Shown: positions 2,408 to 33,089 of the stretch, one piece after another
Position numbering within the stretch: the first letter of the stretch is position 1
Layout: each line of letters opens with the position of its first letter
Source of the DNA: a virus
IMG/VR virus record: IMGVR_UViG_3300021197_000236
Location: 1 to 38,885 of that record
Reading direction: 5' to 3' (one strand)
DNA: 38,885 nt
Position numbers and translations under genes: made by a program
The notes under the pieces: generated by a model
Database searches by the model: none
Told to the model about the DNA's origin: nothing
The model's input: only the letters and a program-made list of their open reading frames with translations

Positions 2408-4019
2408 AATTATTTCCTTGGTACTGAGGTACAGACATAAGACCTGCACCTACACCCGCCTGTTGCCTAGCTTTTTCATAGGCTAGGTCAGCAGATTTGG
2501 GCACAGCATACTGTAGTTCTGTAAGTTGTTCCGCCCAGTTAAACTTATCTTGGTCCTTAACTTTCCTCTTTAATGTTGTATTTGCTAGAGGAGTTAGCTT
2601 CTTAACAGGATTTCTTATGTCTCCTACAAACGGGGGAGTAACTGCTAACACTCTATTAGGCAATAGTTTTGACATACCCGGTATTTTTTCTAGGAAGTTA
2701 TGCTCATCACTAACAGACATAATAAATTTACCGTTAGGTTTAACACCTACAATTACATTAACACCACCTTCTGTTATAGAAGAACCTTTCAAACCGTAGT
2801 TAGTCCATACGTTTCCTGATTCTTTATCTATTTTAAATATAGGTTTAGAGTTACCTCTGTAATCTGCACCCTCTAAAAGTTTTTTAAGTTCTTTTAAATT
2901 CTTTGGATTAGCATCTGTAAGAGTTCTTTGCATAGCATTGAACCTAGCATCAAGACCACCAAGAACATCATCATAGTGCCTTCCACTCTTGTTCATACCC
3001 CTGCCCCTGTCTTCAAAACCACCACGTTTTATATACAGTTTAGTTCCTTTAGAATCTTTAAAAGGTATTCCTTTACCATCTTTCCATACAGAGCCTATAT
3101 GTTTCTCAATAAAACTATACTCTTGTTTAGTAGGAACTCCTCCAAGACCTGCTGTCATACCTTTTGTTAGCTTACCATACTGACCTTTTTTAAATGGCTG
3201 ATAGCCACGAACACCTAAGAATTTATTAAAGTCAGAAAGTATTTGCTTACCTCCTACTCTACCTGACTGTTCTAATATATGAGCATTTGCTAAAGCTCTG
3301 TGTACTAGCTCTATATTCTTATCGTTCTTGTGAGATAAGAAAGAACCCTCAAGTAAACCTTTGTTTATTCCTTCACTTCTATACAGAGCTCTAGAGTAAG
3401 GACTTAAAGCATTAGATAATAGATTCATACCACCATAAGCACCGGTCTTCATAAACCCAGTTAGTTTCTTACCTGCTTCGTATCTTCTTATATTAGAAGA
3501 GCTTCGTATAACATCATCAGCTTGCATTAGAACTTGCTTTTGAAAAGGAGTTGTAAACTTCATTGAATCTGTAAGCAATCCTTGCTTCATTGCTTCAACC
3601 ACATCTACAGTTCTCTGAGTTTTACCGTAGTAGCCTTGTATAAAATTAGGTATTGAGCTTGCAGTAAAGCCTTTCATAGCGTCAGGGTTTACATCTGCTC
3701 CTGCTTTAATAGCATCGTCAACACCCTTAACACCTTTGGTAAACATACCGCCACCAATTAAATTAAGAGGGTCTACCAGTAAGTTTGCAGTTCCAGTTAA
3801 TAGGTAACTAGCTTTACCTAAAGTATCTCTTTCAGAAAACTTTTGTTTAGCTAGGTCCTCAGATACTAATTGTTCAAAGTCATAGTTCTCTTCTTGATTC
3901 CAACCACGCTTAAGACCCTCAAAGCGAGTCTCGTCGTCCCTCTTAGCACCTACAAAGTATCCTTGTATTGCGTTAGCAGGTCTGTCAAGGTCCTCCATTA
4001 AGTCACTAAACCAACCCAT
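2397..4019 (-). CDS. Putative internal virion protein (540 aa)
   Basis: This is the last gene of the leftward virion arm, and its start overlaps the stop of the 976-residue gene upstream. The 540-residue protein begins MGWFSDLMEDLDRP and has a hydrophobic Gly-rich patch near residues 75-95 (PLNLIGGGMF). The body is basic and Gly/Lys-rich. I do not recognise a named domain. Its place beside two other large proteins, after the tail genes, matches the internal core or ejection proteins of short-tailed phages, which leave the capsid with the DNA. That role is inferred from order and size. The last 11 bases overlap the opposing gene. Confidence 0.65.
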   Translation of the reverse strand: MGWFSDLMEDLDRPANAIQGYFVGAKRDDETRFEGLKRGWNQEENYDFEQLVSEDLAKQKFSERDTLGKASYLLTGTANLLVDPLNLIGGGMFTKGVKGVDDAIKAGADVNPDAMKGFTASSIPNFIQGYYGKTQRTVDVVEAMKQGLLTDSMKFTTPFQKQVLMQADDVIRSSSNIRRYEAGKKLTGFMKTGAYGGMNLLSNALSPYSRALYRSEGINKGLLEGSFLSHKNDKNIELVHRALANAHILEQSGRVGGKQILSDFNKFLGVRGYQPFKKGQYGKLTKGMTAGLGGVPTKQEYSFIEKHIGSVWKDGKGIPFKDSKGTKLYIKRGGFEDRGRGMNKSGRHYDDVLGGLDARFNAMQRTLTDANPKNLKELKKLLEGADYRGNSKPIFKIDKESGNVWTNYGLKGSSITEGGVNVIVGVKPNGKFIMSVSDEHNFLEKIPGMSKLLPNRVLAVTPPFVGDIRNPVKKLTPLANTTLKRKVKDQDKFNWAEQLTELQYAVPKSADLAYEKARQQAGVGAGLMSVPQYQGNNSND

Positions 4020-6949
4020 TAGTCTGCCCTCTTAAGTGCTTGTCCTGCTTCCTTACTTATCCTCTTTAATTCTTTCTTAAGTCTAGTCATCTCTGCTTTA
4101 TACTTGTCGTTGTCTACTCTACCGCCTGCTCTATCTCTAGCCATACGGTTTATCTTTTTGTTTAGAGAGCTTATCTTATTCTGATACTTGTAGTTTACAC
4201 GCATCTTCATCTTCTGCTCGTCATAAGTTTTAACCTTAATACCGATAGCTCCGAGAAGTGCTTCGTTCAAACTCTTGTCATCTTTGGTTGGATGCCTCTT
4301 ACCATTAGCTTGATAAGCATTATATATGCTAAACCCTTGATGAAAGAAAGGTAAAAACTCTTTACCTATGATGTTAGCCCTAGCTTTTAACTCATCCTCC
4401 ATAACTCCTGAACCTACTCCCGGTTCCATCTGTTGTGTGAATGTGTCAAATCCTGTAACTGCTTTGGCTATACCACCAATAGCACCACCTGATGGCTGTA
4501 GAGGTGCGGGAAGACCCGGTACGCTAAACCCTTGTTGGCTTGTGCTGAACACATCACCCGCAGGAATCCACCTCGATACGTCTAGATACTTCTCATTAGG
4601 AAGTTTAATCATTGTATTAGCTCCAGGAATTCCTAGTACATCGAATCCCATATTTAGCTCCTCGTATCTCTTTCTCTCTGTCCTGTACTCCTCATCGTCC
4701 GCAGCTAAATCGTTAGCAGCATTTAAGATTAGACCCCATTTAGCTATCTTCCAAGGTCTCTTCATTACTGTTTCAGCTACGATAGGTGCAGCTCTATATG
4801 TATAAGAGATAAATGGCATAGCAGTCTCACGCATTAGTTCTACTGCAGGTGCATCAATCTCATAGTCAAGCATATACTTACGAGCAAAAGCTGCTGCTTC
4901 TGCGTACTGGTCATCAGTAGGTGTAATACCTTCTCTAACATTCTTAGCTAAGTGGTCCTTAAATAAAGCTAGGCGAAAGACGCCATCCTCTGCACTGTAT
5001 AATTTATCTAGTGGAGTTTTACCTGCGTGTTTCTTTGTACTCTCCCACATATTATCTAACAGCTTATCATCATTCTGAGCACCTATCTTCATATATTTCT
5101 TGTAGGTGTCCACCTCAAAGTCTGTTAATTCTCTTTTCATCATATCAGCATTAAAGACTCCTAACTTCTCAGCCATTTTAAAGTCTTCACTCTTAGTCTT
5201 GTTACCTAAAGGAGTAAACGCGTTAAAGAAATCTTTACCTGCTGAGCCTAAGTGTTTGTATTGACCGTCAACTAAATCATACAGAACTACGTTAGACATA
5301 ACATTGTTCATATGTACTACTGGGTTAAGAGATGTTTTAGTTCTCTTCCAAAACTGTAGTGATTTGTGGTGTAGCGTAGAGAATCCTCCGTACCTACCTT
5401 GTCGATACTTCTTCATTCTATTAGCCCACACTAAATCCCTATGAACTTCTGGAGATACATACCTACCTGCTAAGTTTCCAAACTCTCGAACTCTAGTTCC
5501 TTTTTTTCCTACCTTAACAAAAGTTTCAGGCATCTTTATAAAACCTTCTGTCACATTTTCTGGTGCTACATTCTTAGGTAATACAACATCGTTTCCCATT
5601 TTAGTTATATCATCATAGAATTTAAACGTAGCTACATCGTTAGTCATTAGCTTACCAGTCTTAGCCATAGCAAATGTAGAACTTATAATTTCACCCATCT
5701 TTGCTCTTTCTTCGGGAGTGTAATCTTTGTTCATAAGGACTTGACCCTTACCTTTTTTAATTACTCTGTATCCGTTAGCTTCTTCTTCTTTAATTCTAGC
5801 AGCTAATGTCTGACCTTTTCGTGGTCTAAATGTTTTATCTCTACCTCTACGAACAAACTCTGATGCAATAACTCCTACATTATTTTCATCTCTAATTATT
5901 CTTTTCTTTCTAGGGTCAGCAGTTTTTTCGTAAGAACGATATAAGTATTTTTTCTTGTTGGCTTTAAACACATCCTTATCTAACAAACCTAAGTCTACTA
6001 ATTGTTTGCCTAGACCATTAACAATATTTCTACCTTCCTTGCCTAATGCTTTAATGTCAGGAGTCAGAAGTTCCATCTCAGACTTAGCTAACTTCTCGTC
6101 AGTCATAAGTTTGTATAGTGCTCTATCTTGTTCGGGAGTTAGCTTGTTAAATTTTTCAAGAACTTCATTAAAGTCACCCGCCCATTTGTTTTCTAATATT
6201 CTTCTGTTACCTTTAGCTTTAACATAATTATCAGGAAGACCGTAGTTTTCTATAATCCAACCACCCATAGTCTTACCAAATCTAGTTTGTCCGAACCTAT
6301 CAGCAGCTTTCTTACCAGCAGAATAAGCTGGGCGTATAGGAGCAGCTATGCTTCTCTGTACTATGTTAAGGTCTTTAGCAAACTCTCCATCATCTATAGC
6401 TTTACCTATGTTAGAGTAACCACTCTTAAGAGCAGGAACCATAGTCTTATTAAACTTGTACATAGCAGGAGACAAAGCAGTACCGCCGGCAATACCTATA
6501 AGAGTATTGTTAAGCCTAGTCATACCTTCTTCTTCATCTACATATCCTAGAGGTGCAGAAAGACCTCCGGCAATAGCTCCTGCTTTTGCTGCGGATGCAA
6601 TGTTCTTTGCTTTCATTCCGGGAATAAACCAACCGATAGGGTCTCCAAACAAACCTGCAGTATAAGCAGCCATCATAGAACCACCATACTCTTCGTTTTG
6701 TAAATATGTATTTAACCTTCGTTGGTCTTCAGCCATCTGCTCTTCGTCAGTACCAAGTAATTGCTTGACTCCACGCCAAGTATCTTGCAAACCCATACGA
6801 GCAACAAAGGCTAGTTTGTCTTGATAAGTTTCTTCTTTATACTCAGGAGATATATTTCCTCTAAGACCTGCAGTAGATTTATTTATATAATTACCTGAGG
6901 ATATTGACTTACCTTCTTTCCAAGCAGCTAGTTCTTCTTCATAAGTCAT
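4019..6949 (-). CDS. Large internal virion/ejection protein (976 aa)
   Basis: At 976 residues this is the second-largest protein of the genome. It contains Ala/Gly-rich hydrophobic segments near residues 115-160 (KAGAIAGGLSAP and IGIAGGTALS) that could contact membranes. A long charged helical middle follows, and the Lys-rich C-terminus has coiled-coil character. The placement and length suit the large internal core proteins that form a DNA-translocation channel during infection, as gp15 and gp16 do in T7. I see no lysozyme or transglycosylase motif, which some such proteins carry. Start and stop are closely spaced with neighbouring genes, so it is part of the virion operon. Confidence 0.7.
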   Translation of the reverse strand: MTYEEELAAWKEGKSISSGNYINKSTAGLRGNISPEYKEETYQDKLAFVARMGLQDTWRGVKQLLGTDEEQMAEDQRRLNTYLQNEEYGGSMMAAYTAGLFGDPIGWFIPGMKAKNIASAAKAGAIAGGLSAPLGYVDEEEGMTRLNNTLIGIAGGTALSPAMYKFNKTMVPALKSGYSNIGKAIDDGEFAKDLNIVQRSIAAPIRPAYSAGKKAADRFGQTRFGKTMGGWIIENYGLPDNYVKAKGNRRILENKWAGDFNEVLEKFNKLTPEQDRALYKLMTDEKLAKSEMELLTPDIKALGKEGRNIVNGLGKQLVDLGLLDKDVFKANKKKYLYRSYEKTADPRKKRIIRDENNVGVIASEFVRRGRDKTFRPRKGQTLAARIKEEEANGYRVIKKGKGQVLMNKDYTPEERAKMGEIISSTFAMAKTGKLMTNDVATFKFYDDITKMGNDVVLPKNVAPENVTEGFIKMPETFVKVGKKGTRVREFGNLAGRYVSPEVHRDLVWANRMKKYRQGRYGGFSTLHHKSLQFWKRTKTSLNPVVHMNNVMSNVVLYDLVDGQYKHLGSAGKDFFNAFTPLGNKTKSEDFKMAEKLGVFNADMMKRELTDFEVDTYKKYMKIGAQNDDKLLDNMWESTKKHAGKTPLDKLYSAEDGVFRLALFKDHLAKNVREGITPTDDQYAEAAAFARKYMLDYEIDAPAVELMRETAMPFISYTYRAAPIVAETVMKRPWKIAKWGLILNAANDLAADDEEYRTERKRYEELNMGFDVLGIPGANTMIKLPNEKYLDVSRWIPAGDVFSTSQQGFSVPGLPAPLQPSGGAIGGIAKAVTGFDTFTQQMEPGVGSGVMEDELKARANIIGKEFLPFFHQGFSIYNAYQANGKRHPTKDDKSLNEALLGAIGIKVKTYDEQKMKMRVNYKYQNKISSLNKKINRMARDRAGGRVDNDKYKAEMTRLKKELKRISKEAGQALKRAD

Positions 6950-22596: not shown

Positions 22597-23535
22597 TTAT
22601 GAGCCCGGAACTACAAACGCAACACCTGCGTTATTCCTCATTTCTCCAACACCATAAATAGTGTCCGAAGTAAACAAGTCTCCAAGGTACTCCTGTTTAT
22701 ATTGAGTCTGTGAACGCACGCCTACCTGTTCAGCTAGAGCAATTGCATCTTTGTGTAGTAATACACCTACTCTATCAGTATCAGAGTTACCTGCTGCTGT
22801 AGGGCAGTTAGATGAAATGTACACATCTACACCGTAGATTTGTCCAATCTTACCAGTACGGATAGCATCGCCAGAACCAATGAACTGTTGCTCAGTGAAT
22901 CTGTTAATGCCTAGCAAATCATTAGCACAGATTGGTGGAATGATTAATGAACGATTGTCCATTGGTACATCCGCATCGTCAAGTTTCAGTAGCAATGCTC
23001 TGATTCCTGCATCTGTAATGTCTGCTGCGTTAGAAGAGTTACCTGTGTAGAAAGCTGCACCAGTTGAACCAATGTATGCTTTCTCCCAAGAAGCTGCTGC
23101 TGCACCGCCTACAGTACCGCCCTGTAAACCTTCAGTAAGGTTTAGTAGGTCAGTGTCCACCTGCTTAGCGAGAGCATAGCCCGCATCGTCAGTGTAGAAC
23201 TTTCTGAGAGAGCTCAATGCTTGAACTTCTGTGATATCTTCAATTAATACAGAGTATTCATAGTGTTTATCAATCGAAAGATTGGTAGTACCGTGAGTAT
23301 CTCCCTGTATTTTTACTTTTGTATTTGCTGCCTTAGAAGTCGCAGAACCACGAGTCGGCGTTGGAATGTGAATAGTATCACCTTTTTTACCTTTATGATT
23401 CAAGCGAGTAACTAGGGGAGCTACCACCAAGTTCGATTTGTACGCTGCGATAGTTTCATCTGACCAGATTTCTGGGATGAAGTTCGCACCTGTAGTAACC
23501 GTTTGATGGTTAGTGCCGATGACACCTGTAGCCAT
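22597..23535 (-). CDS. Major capsid protein
   Basis: This 312-residue protein follows the scaffold gene directly. The segment FIPEIWSDETIAAYKSNLVV, then VAPLVTRLNHKGKKGDTIHI and HYEYSVLIEDITEVQALS, is typical of the HK97-fold coat proteins found in many short-tailed marine phages. The conserved end NNAGVAFVVPGS also fits. It should assemble the icosahedral head with the scaffold and portal. The strong ribosome site (CAGGAGTAATATT) suits high expression. Recognition is by sequence pattern plus order terminase, portal, scaffold, capsid. Confidence 0.85.
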   Translation of the reverse strand: MATGVIGTNHQTVTTGANFIPEIWSDETIAAYKSNLVVAPLVTRLNHKGKKGDTIHIPTPTRGSATSKAANTKVKIQGDTHGTTNLSIDKHYEYSVLIEDITEVQALSSLRKFYTDDAGYALAKQVDTDLLNLTEGLQGGTVGGAAAASWEKAYIGSTGAAFYTGNSSNAADITDAGIRALLLKLDDADVPMDNRSLIIPPICANDLLGINRFTEQQFIGSGDAIRTGKIGQIYGVDVYISSNCPTAAGNSDTDRVGVLLHKDAIALAEQVGVRSQTQYKQEYLGDLFTSDTIYGVGEMRNNAGVAFVVPGS

Positions 23536-23566
23536 AATATTACTCCTGTGTTATAGTATAATCAAA

Positions 23567-24379
23567 TTATTTGACTCTACCTTCAGCATAGGCACTATAT
23601 ATTTCATCAGCTAAGTCTGCATATCTATTAGGGTCTGTTGCTTTAAGACGTATTAGGTCTGCCCTACGATATGTTTTCTTACCTGCTGTAGTTTCAGCAG
23701 AACTTCTAGATTCAGTCTTACTAGATTTTAGAGCTTTCTTTCTTGTAGCTTCTTGTTGTTCTTTTACTTCTGCAGTTTTATCAATTACAGAACGCTCTTT
23801 CCAGTGCGTAAGTAATTCATCTGCTGCTTCGTAATTATAACGGTCTGCTTCTTGAAACAAATCTGTTCTAAATTTACTAGCTTGTACCCAATCTTGAAAT
23901 CCTGAATCTTGTATAATGTCTACATAATCAGGATGAGTCTTTTCCAACTGTGCTTTGCTCGTGTTTTGTTGTTGTTGAGCTTGGAACTGTTGGAATTCTT
24001 GAAACTTAGGATGTTTTTCTATTAAAGAATTTACCGCTTTATTGGGGTCTTCAAAGAAATCTTCTTCTGTTTCGTTTTTTGAGTTTTGTGTCGCTTGACT
24101 TGTCTGTGGTTCGTTTCTAGATATTTCAGCTTTGAGAAAACTGTCTGATAAACTTCTTAACTCTCCAATCTCTTGACTCTTACGTCCAAGTTCTTGTTCT
24201 AAGTTTTGATAGCTCTTGACTATATCCTCTACACTTTTACCTGAGAATTTATCCGGAACTTCAAAAGCAGGTTCTTGTGTTTCTGCTTCCCCAGCCTCTA
24301 GGGTTTCTTCAGGTTCTACTGTGTTTTCTACTTCTACATCTGCTGATTCGTCAACAGGGTCTACTACTATATTGCTCAT
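23567..24379 (-). CDS. Capsid scaffold protein
   Basis: This 270-residue protein is very acidic in its first 45 residues (DPVDESADVEVENTVEPEE). The middle is Gln/Glu-rich (QEFQQFQAQQQQNTSKAQLE), and the C-terminus is basic with RRADLIRLKATDPNRYADLA. This charge layout, and the position directly before the capsid gene, identify a scaffolding protein. The basic helical end would bind the coat and the protein leaves the maturing head. No protease domain is seen. Confidence 0.8.
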   Translation of the reverse strand: MSNIVVDPVDESADVEVENTVEPEETLEAGEAETQEPAFEVPDKFSGKSVEDIVKSYQNLEQELGRKSQEIGELRSLSDSFLKAEISRNEPQTSQATQNSKNETEEDFFEDPNKAVNSLIEKHPKFQEFQQFQAQQQQNTSKAQLEKTHPDYVDIIQDSGFQDWVQASKFRTDLFQEADRYNYEAADELLTHWKERSVIDKTAEVKEQQEATRKKALKSSKTESRSSAETTAGKKTYRRADLIRLKATDPNRYADLADEIYSAYAEGRVK

Positions 24380-24427
24380 ATCATTGTTCTCCGCCCGTTA
24401 GGGTTATGAAGTTGTAAAAAGATGACG

Positions 24428-24658
24428 CTAGTTGTCTAGTTCTGTCATCGCTGCTTTTGTTGCGTCTTCTAAAACAATCATCTGTCTTAGAATTGACAAC
24501 TGACCTCTGGCGAACCATAGGTCTTTTTCGTTATCAATAGATTCTAATCGTTTAACTGATTCAGACATAACCTTTAATTCTTCTATAAGGTCTGCCCATC
24601 CTTCAGTTTCTAATAGTTCGATTCTATCTCTATAAAATTCTTCGTCTTCTTTTGCCAT
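24428..24658 (-). CDS. Small helical phage protein (76 aa)
   Basis: This 76-residue acidic helical protein (EEFYRDRIELLETEGWADLI, then LWFARGQLSILRQMIVLEDA) overlaps the DUF6321 gene by one base. Proteins of this size and pattern lie between portal and scaffold genes in many phages and have no defined role. It may take part in head assembly by position. Confidence 0.55.
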   Translation of the reverse strand: MAKEDEEFYRDRIELLETEGWADLIEELKVMSESVKRLESIDNEKDLWFARGQLSILRQMIVLEDATKAAMTELDN

Positions 24659-24948
24659 TAAGATTTTTTGTGTCTATTGCAAAAATTTCTAGCTGCTGCT
24701 TCGGAGCTAAAGCCCCATTTTTTTAATGCTAATGCTTTACGGGTAGGCTTACCTTTAGCATCTATCATAGGTCCTGCCATACCGGCAAATCTACAAGCAA
24801 AGGATACACGTCTACTATCTGTTCCGCTTCCTTGTGGTGCTTTTAGATTGCCTCCTGTTTGTGCATTATAAGAAGCTCTACCTTTAGCATTTAATCCGCC
24901 TTTAGGATTTTGACCTTCTTTACGTTGCCACGCTGCTGTCTTAGCCAT
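24658..24948 (-). CDS. DUF6321-type phage protein
   Basis: This 96-residue basic protein begins MAKTAAWQRKEGQNPKGGLN and continues with AKGRASYNAQTGGNLKAP and CARF-type SFACRFAGM. This matches the DUF6321 phage family as I know it. The end has a Cys-containing helix (RNFCNRHKKS). It lies between the portal and scaffold genes, so a virion or packaging role is likely but unproven. Confidence 0.65.
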   Translation of the reverse strand: MAKTAAWQRKEGQNPKGGLNAKGRASYNAQTGGNLKAPQGSGTDSRRVSFACRFAGMAGPMIDAKGKPTRKALALKKWGFSSEAAARNFCNRHKKS

Positions 24949-24951
24949 ATA

Positions 24952-26880
24952 CTATCCTTGTAATTTTTCTTGTGCTGTAGCTATGTTTAATAATGTTTCA
25001 GATTGTAAATGCTCTACTTCTGGTATGTTTCTCATAGTTTCGCTATTTACATTCTCTGTATCTGCTCTCATCTTGTCAATAGCAGCTAAATCTTTCTGTA
25101 GTTTAATAAACTTCTCTTGTATCTTAAGCTCATCAGGTTGTGCTGCTCCGGCTTCTGCTGCATTCTTCATAGCTTTAGTAGCTTCTTCTTGAGCTTCTGC
25201 TTGAGTTTTAGCAATATCAGCTTGCATTTGCTGTACTTGTAGAGCCATATTCATTTGTTTCATTTCTTCTTCTTGTGGGTCAGGTTGCATACCCTGAACA
25301 AGAGCTTGAACAATTTGGTCTCTGTTGTGCATACTAGAATTCTGGAATACAGATGTTAGTATAATATTAAAAGCAGGAGAATCTTTAGGTATAGCTTGCA
25401 ATAAACTAACCATTTGTTGTGCTTCTAGTTCCTTAGCCATAATACCCATAGTAGAGTATGGTACAAATTTATAATCTACAATAGGATACCTATCTACATC
25501 AAACTGTATCTTTCTCCACAAAGCCTTATTAACCATAGGAATAAGGAATGTGTTTTGGAAATTCATTAAGGTGCGTTTCTGTCTTTTAATTGCAGAAGAT
25601 TGCTGCATAGACATACCTGCAGACGTAGCACGCTCAGCACTTCCTTGTGTATCAGCACTGCCAGTACCCATCTGTATCATATTCTGTAGGCTTGCTACTT
25701 GTGTATAAGTGTTTTGGTCGGTGCTGCCTAAAGATAATGGCATTATTGCTTGCCTTGGGTCGCCATTAGTAAGTACAGTCTTACCCGGTCTGACCTCTAG
25801 TCTGACTCCACGCGGTAGTCGAGTCGCGTCGGCAGCCATCATTGGTGTAGTAGTCAGAGCTAACGAGTCAATTCGTGCTCTCATTTCTGCATCTAAAGCC
25901 TTTTGAGCGTTAAATCCTTTCTCACAAATACCCCTACCCCAGAATTTGTTTGGTACAATATCGTGTTGGTAGTATATAAAAGGTCTGTCTTCCATCATAA
26001 ATGGATTACGTTCAGCTCTTAATATGTATTCATCATTAGCCATAGTAACTACAGCTTCGACTAATTCATCATCATTATACTCAAAATCATCCATATCCTC
26101 GTCTTCGGATAGGAATCTTGCGGGTACTTTACCCCAGTATTCTGTAATTTTTATTTGGTCAGAAGCGTCTGCTCTAGACATTTCAGGGTCAAACCCATCA
26201 AATCTTTCTTGATTGTAGCTACCTTCTATAGGTATATCACGATAAGTACCATTATCTATGCCTTCTATAATGCTGTGTCTAGGCTTTACTACTTCGTGTG
26301 CGACACCTAATGCTTCATCTATATTAACAGCGGAAGGGTCTATAAGAAATTCTTTAGGACTAATTGCTTCTACCTTAACATCTATTACATTATCTTCTTG
26401 CAATATTCTTTCACTAACCATAGTTCCTTCGATAGGAACTTCGACAGGATATCTCCAAGTGCTTTCTGCTACAGATACTTTGCCAATACCTGTTCCGTAT
26501 ATAGCACCGTTAAGAAACACTTCACACAGTGCGTCTTTACAACCTGTAGATTCTAAGTCTTCTTGAAGTAAGTTTCTAACATACTCAGCATCTCTAGGGT
26601 CTTGGTCTAACATATCATCTTTGATATCAAACCATTTCCCTCTGCCAAATGTAGCCTCTTCGATTTCAGCAACAGATGATTCTACTGCTTGTTGTAGTGC
26701 GGGCGAGATTAGTTGCGACTTTTCAGACGTTCTAGTTCTGTCTGATGCTTGCCATATGCCACGCCATAGACGATAATATTCATCCCATTTAGATTGATAG
26801 TTGGAATCCCTATGGTCTCTCCACTCATCTAATCGAGTGTGCAACCAACCTGCTAAACCTTGATATTTATTTTCTTCCAT
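24952..26880 (-). CDS. Portal protein
   Basis: This 642-residue protein follows terL with a one-base overlap. The N-terminal WDEYYRLWRGIWQASDRTRT and a long central alpha/beta region match portal proteins of podovirus type. A long Gln/Ala/Glu-rich helix (residues 540-640, MALQVQQMQADIAKTQAEAQ) would form the barrel end inside the head. The portal ring is the gate for DNA packaging and holds the tail adaptor. Its length is somewhat above T7 gp8 (536). Confidence 0.85.
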   Translation of the reverse strand: MEENKYQGLAGWLHTRLDEWRDHRDSNYQSKWDEYYRLWRGIWQASDRTRTSEKSQLISPALQQAVESSVAEIEEATFGRGKWFDIKDDMLDQDPRDAEYVRNLLQEDLESTGCKDALCEVFLNGAIYGTGIGKVSVAESTWRYPVEVPIEGTMVSERILQEDNVIDVKVEAISPKEFLIDPSAVNIDEALGVAHEVVKPRHSIIEGIDNGTYRDIPIEGSYNQERFDGFDPEMSRADASDQIKITEYWGKVPARFLSEDEDMDDFEYNDDELVEAVVTMANDEYILRAERNPFMMEDRPFIYYQHDIVPNKFWGRGICEKGFNAQKALDAEMRARIDSLALTTTPMMAADATRLPRGVRLEVRPGKTVLTNGDPRQAIMPLSLGSTDQNTYTQVASLQNMIQMGTGSADTQGSAERATSAGMSMQQSSAIKRQKRTLMNFQNTFLIPMVNKALWRKIQFDVDRYPIVDYKFVPYSTMGIMAKELEAQQMVSLLQAIPKDSPAFNIILTSVFQNSSMHNRDQIVQALVQGMQPDPQEEEMKQMNMALQVQQMQADIAKTQAEAQEEATKAMKNAAEAGAAQPDELKIQEKFIKLQKDLAAIDKMRADTENVNSETMRNIPEVEHLQSETLLNIATAQEKLQG

Positions 26881-28145
26881 TAGTATCCTGCAACTTCATC
26901 ATATGGTTCCCACTCCTCTTCTAATTCTATTGTGTGCATAAAGTCTGCTACACTAACTTGGTCTATGTATGCGAGAGAGTCAATAATGTCGTCGTGTGTT
27001 CCCTTACTAGGAAACTCTATTAACTGTGTCTCTAACTCGCTATTCCAATCAGAATTACGATTAAATGTAATTTTACCGTGCTCCATTCTACCTTGCAAAG
27101 CCCAAGTAATTCTATCTGCTTTCTTTTTGCCACCGTGAGTTACGTCTGTTATGACTACCCATCTACCTTGTGTTCTCATCTCGTCTTGCAGATAAGGAAG
27201 TATGGCGTTCTTTAAAGCTCCGGATTCTATTCCGACAGTAGTTGCCTGATTCTCAATTGCAGCCTGTAGTATTTTAGAAGCAGTTTCTTTGATATTCCAA
27301 CGCCCGTGTAGTATATCTTTAACCCACCACTTATCACCGTGGATTTTAACGATTGATATAGCTGTTTCATCTAACTTACTCCCTTTAAGACCACGTTCCT
27401 TTTCCACCGCTTCAAAGCCCGCAGGGTCAACCGCAATAACGTAATTGCCTTCCTCCGGTTCATTCTCATCGTACTTAATCCATTCATTTTTAAATATACC
27501 ACCAGTAAAACTTACAAAGGATGCTTCAAATTCTTGTCTGAACGCTTGCGTCGACATTGTTCTTCTAGCAACTTCTACCTCTTTAGGGTCTATTAGAGGG
27601 TTGTCTGTAGACGTATATTGGAATGCTTCCCAGTCCTCGTCTTTTTCTGCCTCTAAAAACAAATCATAGAAGTGATTCTTTCCGGCAGGAGTCCCAATAA
27701 AGAGTGCACCACCTTTTACATCTGAAAGTGTCGGTCTTATAATCTGCTCCCAGACTTCTACCTTCATAGAAGCATATTCATCAAGCACGACATAAGCAAG
27801 CCCCACGCCCCTTAGAGTATCTGGTCGGTCACTTCCCTTTAAGCTAATTCTTCTACCATTAACTAACTTCATAGTAGCTGTATTCTCGTGGGTAGTCTCT
27901 ATAAGGTCTGTCCCGTGAAGAAGTTCCTTGAGCATATTCCACATAATATCTTTAGCTTGTTGGAATGTAGGACCTATATAAAAGACATCCTTACTTTCTG
28001 ACTGTAGAGCCTTGATGATTAGTATCCACGCTGCTAGTCTGGACTTTCCAAATCGCCTACCCGCACTTACTACTTTAAATCGGGCAGTGCTATTGAAGAT
28101 TTCTAGCTGTGCAGGATGTAGTTGTACATCTAACTCTTTAGCCAT
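26880..28145 (-). CDS. terL: Terminase large subunit
   Basis: This 421-residue packaging motor has a Walker A-type motif GRRFGKSR (Lys34) and a Walker B-like VVLDEYA (Asp122, Glu123). The C-terminal RNase H-like nuclease part has IAVDPAGF (Asp240) and a later acidic THDDIIDSLAYID (about 390-402). It packs DNA into the prohead and cuts the concatemer. It overlaps the terminase small-subunit gene by eight bases and the portal by one. At 421 residues it is shorter than T7 gp19 (586), so the type of ends cannot be read from length alone. Confidence 0.92.
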   Translation of the reverse strand: MAKELDVQLHPAQLEIFNSTARFKVVSAGRRFGKSRLAAWILIIKALQSESKDVFYIGPTFQQAKDIMWNMLKELLHGTDLIETTHENTATMKLVNGRRISLKGSDRPDTLRGVGLAYVVLDEYASMKVEVWEQIIRPTLSDVKGGALFIGTPAGKNHFYDLFLEAEKDEDWEAFQYTSTDNPLIDPKEVEVARRTMSTQAFRQEFEASFVSFTGGIFKNEWIKYDENEPEEGNYVIAVDPAGFEAVEKERGLKGSKLDETAISIVKIHGDKWWVKDILHGRWNIKETASKILQAAIENQATTVGIESGALKNAILPYLQDEMRTQGRWVVITDVTHGGKKKADRITWALQGRMEHGKITFNRNSDWNSELETQLIEFPSKGTHDDIIDSLAYIDQVSVADFMHTIELEEEWEPYDEVAGY

Positions 28146-28620: not shown

Positions 28621-28650
28621 AGGTGAATCTTTTTTTTAATCTATAGTAAT

Positions 28651-28679
28651 AGTATAGCATACTTTTCAATGGAAGTCAA
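28651..28679 (-). promoter_or_regulatory. Sigma-70 promoter for the leftward virion arm
   Basis: On the minus strand TTGACT (28679-28674) and TATACT (28656-28651) are separated by exactly 17 bases, each one base away from the sigma-70 consensus. It faces the terminase gene and no other promoter-like element of this quality is seen upstream of it. It would let host RNA polymerase transcribe the virion operon. Confidence 0.75.
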
Positions 28680-31933: not shown

Positions 31934-32201
31934 ATTAGCACAAGCATATGAAGACAGTAAATTATTGTACTTTGTGACTGATGGCGAAGGTAACTGTATG
32001 TTAGACAGAGTGACACAAGTAGACGCACAGATATATGCTATGAAGAATGGCTGGTCTATCGGTAGACACGATGTGTCACCGGTGACAAACTATCAGCCCA
32101 ACGAGGACTTACCTTTTTATAATGACGATGGCACTGCTATCACTTATGAGAACAAGGATGAGCTCAGTGAAGATGACTTCTCCACATACGGAGGTATGTA
32201 A
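31908..32201 (+). CDS. Early protein of unknown function (97 aa)
   Basis: This 97-residue protein overlaps the previous gene by 26 bases and has a TAAGGAGTAAGA ribosome site. The core SKLLYFVTDGEGNCMLDRVT and DAQIYAMKNGWSIGRHD looks like a small alpha/beta domain, with an acidic tail. A palindrome copy (32074-32087) is translated as VSPVTN in a loop-like stretch. No family is recognised. Confidence 0.55.
   Translation: MHKKPLMSRLAQAYEDSKLLYFVTDGEGNCMLDRVTQVDAQIYAMKNGWSIGRHDVSPVTNYQPNEDLPFYNDDGTAITYENKDELSEDDFSTYGGM
32074..32087. repeat. TGTCACCGGTGACA palindrome, inside coding sequence
   Basis: An exact copy within the 97-residue early gene, read as V-S-P-V-T-N. It lies about 290 bases before the structured RNA promoter. 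Confidence 0.7.
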
Positions 32202-32380
32202 TGAGATGTAAATGTTGTGATGCCTTGCTCAATGAGTGGGAATCTAAGGCAAAGGACCCTGCAGAAAGAACAAAATATTTAGACTTGTGCTCTGTCTGTA
32301 GATACCATTCCAATCCTTATTCTTTCTTAGACGATGACGAGGTGATAAAAAAAGAAGATATTAATGTTGACATCGGTTGA
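32201..32380 (+). CDS. Small zinc-finger-like protein (59 aa)
   Basis: This 59-residue protein starts at an ATG overlapping the previous stop by one base. Cys residues at MRCKCC (3, 5, 6) and LCSVC (30, 33) could bind one zinc ion, as in short phage proteins with two CxxC knuckles. The C-terminus is acidic. The last codons contain the -35 boxes of the RNA promoter. Confidence 0.6.
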   Translation: MRCKCCDALLNEWESKAKDPAERTKYLDLCSVCRYHSNPYSFLDDDEVIKKEDINVDIG

Positions 32381-32395
32381 CAAATAGATTAAAAT
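32367..32395 (+). promoter_or_regulatory. Sigma-70 promoter of the structured RNA locus
   Basis: TTGACA (32367-32372), 17 bases and TAAAAT (32390-32395) give a near-consensus promoter inside the end of the zinc-finger gene. A second TTGACA follows at 32377 with a weaker -10 downstream. Transcription should begin near 32402, at the start of the non-coding segment. Confidence 0.75.
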
Positions 32396-32401
32396 ATTAC
32401 T

Positions 32402-32656
32402 ATAGATTCAATTAAAGAGATAACCATAATGATTATCACTTTGGTTGAGTCTTAAGTAAGAGTGATTAGAGATACAGTAGCTCAGATAGTGGGGAAGGCG
32501 TAATTAACCAACCTGTTACTATATAAGGAGCGGTCATTAAGTCTGTTCTAGACAAATTCTTAATGGCGTCGTCGTGGGTTCAAGTCCTTCCTGTATCATC
32601 TAATCACTTTTATATGGCTGTTGTGATTTCGAGTCCGTCACAGCAGTCTTTTTTTT
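32402..32656 (+). ncRNA. Structured tRNA-like RNA
   Basis: No gene is visible here, but a promoter stands before it and a terminator closes it, giving a transcript of about 255 bases. The core (32471-32597) follows a tRNA cloverleaf. It has a 7-bp acceptor-like stem GATACAG/CTGTATC, TA at positions 8-9, and a D-like stem GCTC/GAGC with a loop of 44 bases instead of about 8. An anticodon-arm equivalent GTCATTAAG/CTTAATGGC (9 pairs, one wobble) has a 17-base loop. A 6-base variable loop and a T-arm GTGGG-TTCAAGT-CCTTC (one mismatch) complete it. Discriminator A follows and CCA is not encoded. The acceptor stem is extended by AGTGATTAGA/TCTAATCACT with one bulge, 17 pairs in all. No normal anticodon loop is seen, so it is not an ordinary tRNA. 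Confidence 0.6.
32618..32656 (+). terminator. Intrinsic terminator of the structured RNA
   Basis: CTGTTGTGA and TCACAGCAG pair over nine positions (one wobble), extendable by two more pairs, with an 11-base loop, and a run of eight T residues follows. It lies between the tRNA-like RNA and the ssDNA-binding gene. Early read-through into replication genes would need anti-termination, incomplete termination or a separate promoter. Confidence 0.8.
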
Positions 32657-32678
32657 CAGGGCTCCGAGGAAACAAACT

Positions 32679-33089
32679 ATGATAACTAAAGGTATAGCAA
32701 AGTATGTCTATCTAGACAGTACAGAGAAATTTAATGGTGAGGATACCGGTAAGTACACACTTACTGTCGCTGTTAATGACAAAGAAGCCAAAGCACTAGA
32801 GTCAGCAGGTGTTAAGGTCCGCACTATTCAGACAGAGGACGGAGGGTCTTACAAGGCACGCAAGTTCTCCACTAAGTATCCATTGTCTTTTGATATGGTG
32901 AAGATGGCTGAGGATGGCGAATCAATCGGACACGATTTTGGAGCTGAATCAGAAGTACAGGTACTTTGGAAAGCAGGAAACGAACACCCTCAACACGGGG
33001 TCGCAACCTACCTCACTGCAGTTAAAGTATTGAAGCGTACCGAAGGGTACAAATCACAGGATGCTGAGACTAGTGAGTTCTTCGCATAA
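32679..33089 (+). CDS. Single-stranded DNA-binding protein (T7 gp2.5-like)
   Basis: This 136-residue protein has an OB-fold-like strand pattern (GIAKYVYLDSTEKFNGEDTG, KYTLTVAVND, then VRTIQTED). Its acidic tail ends in ETSEFFA; an acidic end with terminal aromatic residues recruits polymerase and helicase in T7 gp2.5. It is shorter than gp2.5 (232). It starts after a GAGGA ribosome site directly downstream of the RNA terminator and overlaps the primase gene by 29 bases. Confidence 0.75.
   Translation: MITKGIAKYVYLDSTEKFNGEDTGKYTLTVAVNDKEAKALESAGVKVRTIQTEDGGSYKARKFSTKYPLSFDMVKMAEDGESIGHDFGAESEVQVLWKAGNEHPQHGVATYLTAVKVLKRTEGYKSQDAETSEFFA

Follow-up and report, generated by a model that had tools for sequence, protein, structure and literature searches.

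Introduction

Most known cases of tRNA mimicry by viruses concern the 3' ends of RNA virus genomes, and the tRNA-like structures found there in plant RNA viruses usually carry CCA. A tRNA-like fold can also be part of the 5' untranslated region of an mRNA, as in the thrS operator of E. coli, which regulates a tRNA synthetase (threonyl-tRNA synthetase), and in other tRNA-like mRNA leaders. The gene 32 leaders of phages T4 and RB69 belong to SSB mRNAs and fold into a pseudoknot ahead of the ribosome site, and in T4 gp32 nucleates on this pseudoknot and thereby represses translation (PMC535899). Other structured RNAs of phages and bacteria, namely OLE, ROOL, and GOLLD, display symmetric palindromic kissing loops backed by covariation, which for OLE and GOLLD have been deduced from palindromes that covary, and tRNA genes are often found close to GOLLD and ROOL (PMC12286853). 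Finally, the Racr RNA anti-CRISPRs are small phage RNAs that mimic a host RNA, in their case CRISPR repeats, and provide a precedent for RNA decoys (PMC10651486).

Here we analyze a 38,885-nt stretch of viral DNA, the IMG/VR record IMGVR_UViG_3300021197_000236 (hereafter called the window), together with relatives from IMG/VR that are named L001 etc. The window encodes a tRNA-like RNA that shares with the plant virus structures the viral copying of tRNA shape but lies in a 5' leader and has blocked ends; its 38.9-kb record belongs to a phage, with genes for terminase, portal, and head protein. Like the thrS operator, this fold is found in a 5' untranslated region, but it precedes SSB or ERF-type annealing genes and is both optional and swappable. 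The T4 pseudoknot has its counterpart in the conserved part of the leader, whereas an insert of tRNA-like shape is not described for T4. OLE, ROOL, and GOLLD are much larger and lack tRNA topology, while the phage leader RNA is a candidate for dimerization; and where the Racr RNAs mimic CRISPR repeats, this RNA mimics tRNA. No description of such a leader RNA was found in the open-access literature that we searched and, to our knowledge, a covarying tRNA-shaped RNA that resides in mRNA leaders of dsDNA phages and that near-identical phages gain, lose, and swap has not been described before. It points to an undescribed use of tRNA mimicry by phages and is a directly testable candidate for RNA-based counter-defense or for RNA control of phage recombination proteins.

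The leader of a replication operon

The initial annotation of the window proposed a stand-alone RNA locus with its own near-consensus promoter and its own terminator. The promoter is there, as a sigma70-type element (TTGACA-N17-TAAAAT; 11 of 12 consensus matches) at positions 32367–32395 on the plus strand, like the leader elements and the SSB gene described below. Just after it follows the conserved sequence TATTACTATAG (32395–32405), and transcription probably starts near position 32402. The predicted order of elements continues with the 5'-terminal hairpin 1 of the leader (32404–32452), the tRNA-like domain (32461–32608), a hairpin with a U tract (32616–32648), and an open reading frame at 32679. 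Comparison with empty sites in L002, L010, L011, and L012 gives the optional tRNA-like insert approximate limits of 32459–32614. The first gene past the leader (32679–33089; 136 aa) appears to encode a gp2.5-like ssDNA-binding/annealing protein (SSB), an assignment based partly on synteny with the L142 homolog, a weak PHROG match, and a weak BLASTP match. Folding of the interval 32402–32660 is more stable than expected (z = -7.3), and the same is true of its tRNA-like part (32455–32610; z = -3.9), with 0 of 200 shuffles equally stable in either case.

The promoter and TATTACTATAG are kept in relatives with and without the tRNA-like insert, and SSB-gene leaders are structured in all relatives. 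The promoter and both hairpins are shared with relatives that lack the tRNA-like part, so that a stand-alone RNA locus is not supported, and the interval is the leader of the SSB gene, i.e., the 5' leader of a replication-operon mRNA that starts with the ssDNA-binding/annealing gene. The supposed terminator shares this fate in part: The last hairpin and its U tract exist in the window, but the hairpin belongs to the conserved leader, and the U tract is missing in a second group of SSB phages, so that this element seems to be more than a terminator. Its loop GAGTCC (32631–32636) pairs with GGGCTC (32659–32664), directly downstream of which lies the ribosome site GAGG (32666–32669). This pseudoknot between the last-hairpin loop and the flank of the ribosome site is found in the window (32616–32669) as well as in the leaders of L002–L078 and L399–L441, and the pairing of the loop (near -50) with a segment at about -20 covaries across many relatives in at least 8 sequence versions. 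Leaders of the T4 gene 32 type are marked by a pseudoknot that immediately precedes the ribosome site of the SSB gene; here it belongs to the leader and not to the insert, and by analogy we regard it as a candidate for autoregulation like that of T4 gene 32.

Directly upstream of the leader, a zinc-finger-like small protein (phrog_10364) is encoded at 32201–32380, as is also the case in the L142 group. A second exact copy of TATTACTATAG lies on the minus strand at 28641–28651 together with a TATACT -10-like box and heads a leftward operon whose first gene precedes terminase. These two are the only exact copies in the window, each heading one of two divergent operons.

Homologs and covariation of the tRNA-like domain

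A search baited with the downstream gene retrieved 77 IMG/VR loci. In most of them, the promoter, hairpin 1, and the last hairpin recur without the tRNA-like domain, which is present in L003, L006, L008, L009, L013, and L020. Position-unbiased pattern scans of all viral contigs added L142/L145, L155, L159, and L171/L177, while L327 and the divergent L425 were found with a covariance model (R1). Since L001 is the window itself and the element of L009 is that of L008, this makes 12 distinct members including the window, all of which feature the 17-bp closing stem, the acceptor, D, and T stems of a tRNA, a D arm larger than usual, and a modified anticodon arm.

Conservation of the stems among relatives, on which the initial annotation had staked its proposal, was examined in covariation tests spanning 10–12 homologs: The stems are conserved and show compensatory changes. 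Across the core helices, 98.6% of alignment cells are paired, and compensated (double-sided) changes occur at 14 of 31 pairs, compared to 1–3 compensated pairs in slid controls; the covariation score of the core was reached by none of 500 shuffles. The closing stem is 99.5% paired over the family (10 of 17 pairs compensated), and the type B anticodon arm has 97.4% of its cells paired, with compensation at 4 of 8 pairs. By this comparative evidence, the tRNA-like structure is real.

The RNA is built as a four-way junction of tRNA topology with a 17-bp stalk, a structured expansion of the D arm, and a variable equivalent of the anticodon arm. In the window, the 5' strand of the stalk (P1; 32461–32477) comprises an outer, site-specific 10 nt, AGTGATTAGA, and the 7-nt acceptor-like GATACAG (32471–32477); the 3' strand (32591–32608) consists of CTGTATC (32591–32597), which completes the 7-bp acceptor-like stem, a bulged A32598, and TCTAATCACT. 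A TA linker (32478–32479) leads into the enlarged D arm (32480–32531), whose D stem GCTC/GAGC (32480–32483 with 32528–32531) encloses 44 nt. This D loop had been described as giant, and its size stands, but it is a structured arm rather than an open loop: An inner helix ATAGT/ACTAT (32486–32490/32517–32521) and a distal helix GGAAGG/CCAACC (32493–32498/32507–32512) both covary, and in half of the members of our first alignment, the tip of the arm bears an extra hairpin capped by GAUA. The anticodon-arm equivalent of the window, type A, occupies 32533–32567 with a 9-bp stem (32533–32541 with 32559–32567) and a 17-nt loop that contains the palindrome TCTAGA (32547–32552). After a variable loop of 6 nt, the T arm (32574–32590) displays the T loop TTCAAGT (32579–32585); its T-stem pair T32575/T32589 is a mismatch in the window and paired in most relatives. 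The tRNA hallmarks that had been read from the window, with their order and spacing, the dimensions of the anticodon arm, and the prolongation of the acceptor stem to 17 bp were thus all recovered.

Each record has one copy of the RNA, always just upstream of an annealing-protein gene, and no second copy was seen across 49 phage records. This gene is the gp2.5-like ssDNA-binding/annealing gene in the window, L142, and L425 and an ERF-type annealing gene in L155, L159, L171, and L327; the two are non-homologous, though both have an ssDNA-annealing function. In the ERF phages, the stalk starts a few bases past a TATAAT box. Terminase, portal, and head genes are common to the ERF phages and the window phage, while the replication modules of the two differ, and the carriers as a whole are a group of marine phages. 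For instance, the head and terminase genes at window positions 22597–28145 are homologous to those of L171 and L319 at 66–77% identity, and the non-homologous replication modules are composed of SSB, primase-helicase, and PolA in the window and of ERF and DnaB in L171 and L319.

The pattern scan of bacterial genome contigs gave no true member among the matches listed, and searching 289 genomes of one class with R1 matched only 2 genuine tRNAs. Weak R1 matches in L055 and L469 (about 20 bits), where ARAGORN called no tRNA, were dismissed as chance. Neither megablast of the region nor tblastn of the SSB protein matched annotated phages, and blastn of a family member against phages matched only T-arm pieces of tRNA genes.

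Relationship to tRNA

Covariance model R1 aligned end to end with genuine tRNA-Met (43 bits) and tRNA-Lys (41 bits) genes and with phage tRNA-Phe genes, and these alignments span the first to the last tRNA position while skipping only the expansions. The family is therefore tRNA-like by measurement and, judged by this similarity, probably derived from tRNA. It has in common with canonical tRNA (RF00005) the acceptor, D, and T stems in standard length and order, i.e., a 7-bp acceptor stem, a UA linker, a 4-bp D stem, 1 nt ahead of the anticodon stem, a 5-bp anticodon stem (in type B members), a variable loop of 4–6 nt, and a 5-bp T stem with a UUCAARU loop. Unlike canonical tRNA, it has a 10-bp extension of the acceptor stem and a structured D-arm expansion (44 nt in the window, where a D loop of roughly 7–12 nt would be expected). 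It also lacks a 7-nt anticodon loop with a conserved anticodon, having instead loops of 17, 8, 7, and 10 nt with unrelated palindromes, and it lacks a free 3' end with discriminator and CCA, as the 3' end runs on into P1. A discriminator A had been noted in the window and does exist as A32598, but it is not a family feature: The unpaired position is absent in L006, L142, L155, L159, L171, L327, and L425, which is about half of the members. In Rfam 15, the locus matched no family at the gathering threshold, and only clear chance matches appeared at E values up to 10. Since defining features of either class were tested and found lacking, this RNA belongs neither to the tRNAs nor to the tRNA-like structures at viral 3' ends, and its features indicate an RNA that derives from tRNA or mimics it without being able to work as one. 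Of the three readings offered by the initial annotation, a tRNA with inserted segments thus holds only in an evolutionary sense, since the inserts are conserved structures in their own right.

ARAGORN called a tRNA-Pyl (CTA) at 32514–32600, which would agree with a true, processed and charged tRNA with oversized arms such as an amber suppressor. However, no tRNA was called in 11 other members, the CTA sits in a palindrome that elsewhere reads GUAUAC, GUCGAC, ACUAGU, or UUGCAA, and the RNA's ends are locked in the 17-bp stem with the discriminator base absent in half of the members, so that a charged tRNA is very improbable. Phages often carry 3' halves of tRNAs, and the T-arm sequence of the family matches host tRNAs, as it would if the element were attP-like or a decayed tRNA fragment left by integration. 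Such a fragment would not be expected to present a complete tRNA topology with compensated expansions of the D and anticodon arms, and no integrase was detected among 20 window proteins scanned; we disfavor this origin because both arms covary and consider it the least probable of all explanations discussed here.

An exchangeable cassette

The insert is absent from phages that are otherwise nearly identical to its carriers. The flanks of the window and L003 (filled) are about 98% identical to those of L002 (empty), a figure that for the window covers the SSB gene plus 1.5 kb beyond it, and L319 (filled) matches L320 (empty) at 98.6% identity in the ERF gene. Filled and empty leaders have the same flanking cis elements, and no alternative pairing of the core with the ribosome site was seen by eye. 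The cores diverge more than their flanks within a group and less across groups: Those of the window and L006 are 76% identical between flanks of 90–94% identity, whereas the cores of L006 (an SSB phage) and L159 (an ERF phage) are 91% identical, and L013 and L020 combine 97% identity of the core with 83% identity of the downstream DNA. In contrast, the outer 10 bp of the stalk track the site and not the core. Furthermore, the same slot holds other RNAs in L322/L323 and L402/L404 as well as an element common to L053/L054 and L327. Filled and empty sites, swapped cores, a site-bound stalk base, and other RNAs in the slot together form the pattern of an exchangeable cassette, and with cores exchanged on a stalk that stays fixed, nature has in effect built a tRNA-scaffold cassette.

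A selfish RNA passenger that is spread among leaders by recombination and merely tolerated would also account for the patchy distribution, the clean empty sites, and the long inverted ends. Yet no mobility gene adjoins the insert, its structure is strongly conserved with compensated changes, and the site-specific stalk base makes the spread resemble allele exchange rather than insertion at new sites, all of which leaves a selfish passenger a quite unlikely explanation.

Palindromic loops

The loop of the anticodon arm always includes a 6-nt palindrome, for which we found 5 versions: UCUAGA (type A), GUAUAC (type B), GUCGAC (L327), ACUAGU (L142), and UUGCAA (L425). From type B to L327, the central AU becomes CG with the palindrome kept and the arms otherwise matching, and such a palindromic change would be a sign of intermolecular pairing because adjacent bases cannot pair within one chain. 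A loop palindrome that varies yet stays palindromic is also what characterizes RNAs of the OLE/GOLLD type. In a test chosen post hoc, the chance of these palindromes was about 1.6e-4 (product over 4 sequence-unrelated loops, shuffling each loop's own letters). We hypothesize that the palindromic loops may form kissing dimers and go no further than that, given the post hoc choice of the test and an AT-rich palindrome that is also present at the D-arm tip in some members.

Possible functions of the cassette

Two other readings of the initial annotation, a tRNA mimic and a regulatory leader, are both alive. With a rough probability of 0.42, we favor an exchangeable RNA cassette that would be transcribed from the leader promoter, fold as a tRNA mimic, probably dimerize via its palindromic loop, and exert its effect chiefly in trans. 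It would do so by binding a host factor whose usual ligand is tRNA, with a tRNA-targeting defense nuclease or a tRNA-processing or -binding protein as candidate targets. SSB translation would be under separate control by the leader pseudoknot, much as in T4 gene 32.

The location of all members upstream of ssDNA-annealing genes, with one copy per record, fits a role in cis equally well. As a domain of the 5' untranslated region, the stalked fold at or near the transcript start might shield the SSB or ERF mRNA from 5'-end-dependent decay, or a host tRNA-binding protein might bind the fold and tune translation of the annealing protein in a way similar to the thrS operator. The strongest point for such a domain is that it occurs exclusively right before annealing genes, of two kinds that share a function but not homology, and the short distance between TATAAT box and stalk in the ERF phages as well as the structured SSB leaders of all relatives go in the same direction. 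Against it stand the near-identical phages without the insert, its insertion between intact cis elements that it leaves unchanged, the unrelated RNAs that can replace it, and the conservation of the T loop, D-arm helices, and loop sequences beyond what mere stability would need. Taken together, the two forms of a cis-acting domain are possible without being probable, and we prefer a cassette acting in trans because near-identical phages lack the insert, the flanking cis elements are unaltered, and unrelated RNAs substitute for it. Going beyond this trans-acting cassette, one may speculate that these phages keep an RNA slot in the leader of the annealing operon and pass structured RNAs in and out of it, and that its commonest occupant is a dimerizing tRNA mimic, serving as bait or inhibitor of host tRNA-directed machinery and notably of tRNA-cleaving defenses, though this wider proposal is rather unlikely.

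Other RNAs in the leader slot and in a related contig

The RNA of L322 (about 3138–3340) and L323 is a different four-way-junction RNA in the slot of an ERF leader. It has a T-arm-like hairpin, GGTGG TTGGAGT CCACC, is weakly similar to tRNA genes by BLAST, and is possibly a second tRNA-like family. A third RNA, in the SSB leader slot of L402 (about 2550–2690) and L404, has a closing stem of about 24 bp and no tRNA features. The shared element GTAGTTTGTTTAGA..GGCTCTTGGTTC..GGTAGTTTTAAACTC is common to the SSB leader of L053 (about 4808–4940) and the ERF leader of L327 (about 3448–3580). At 425–488 of the related phage contig L053, the type II hammerhead ribozyme model of Rfam scores 39.9 bits, above its gathering score of 37.
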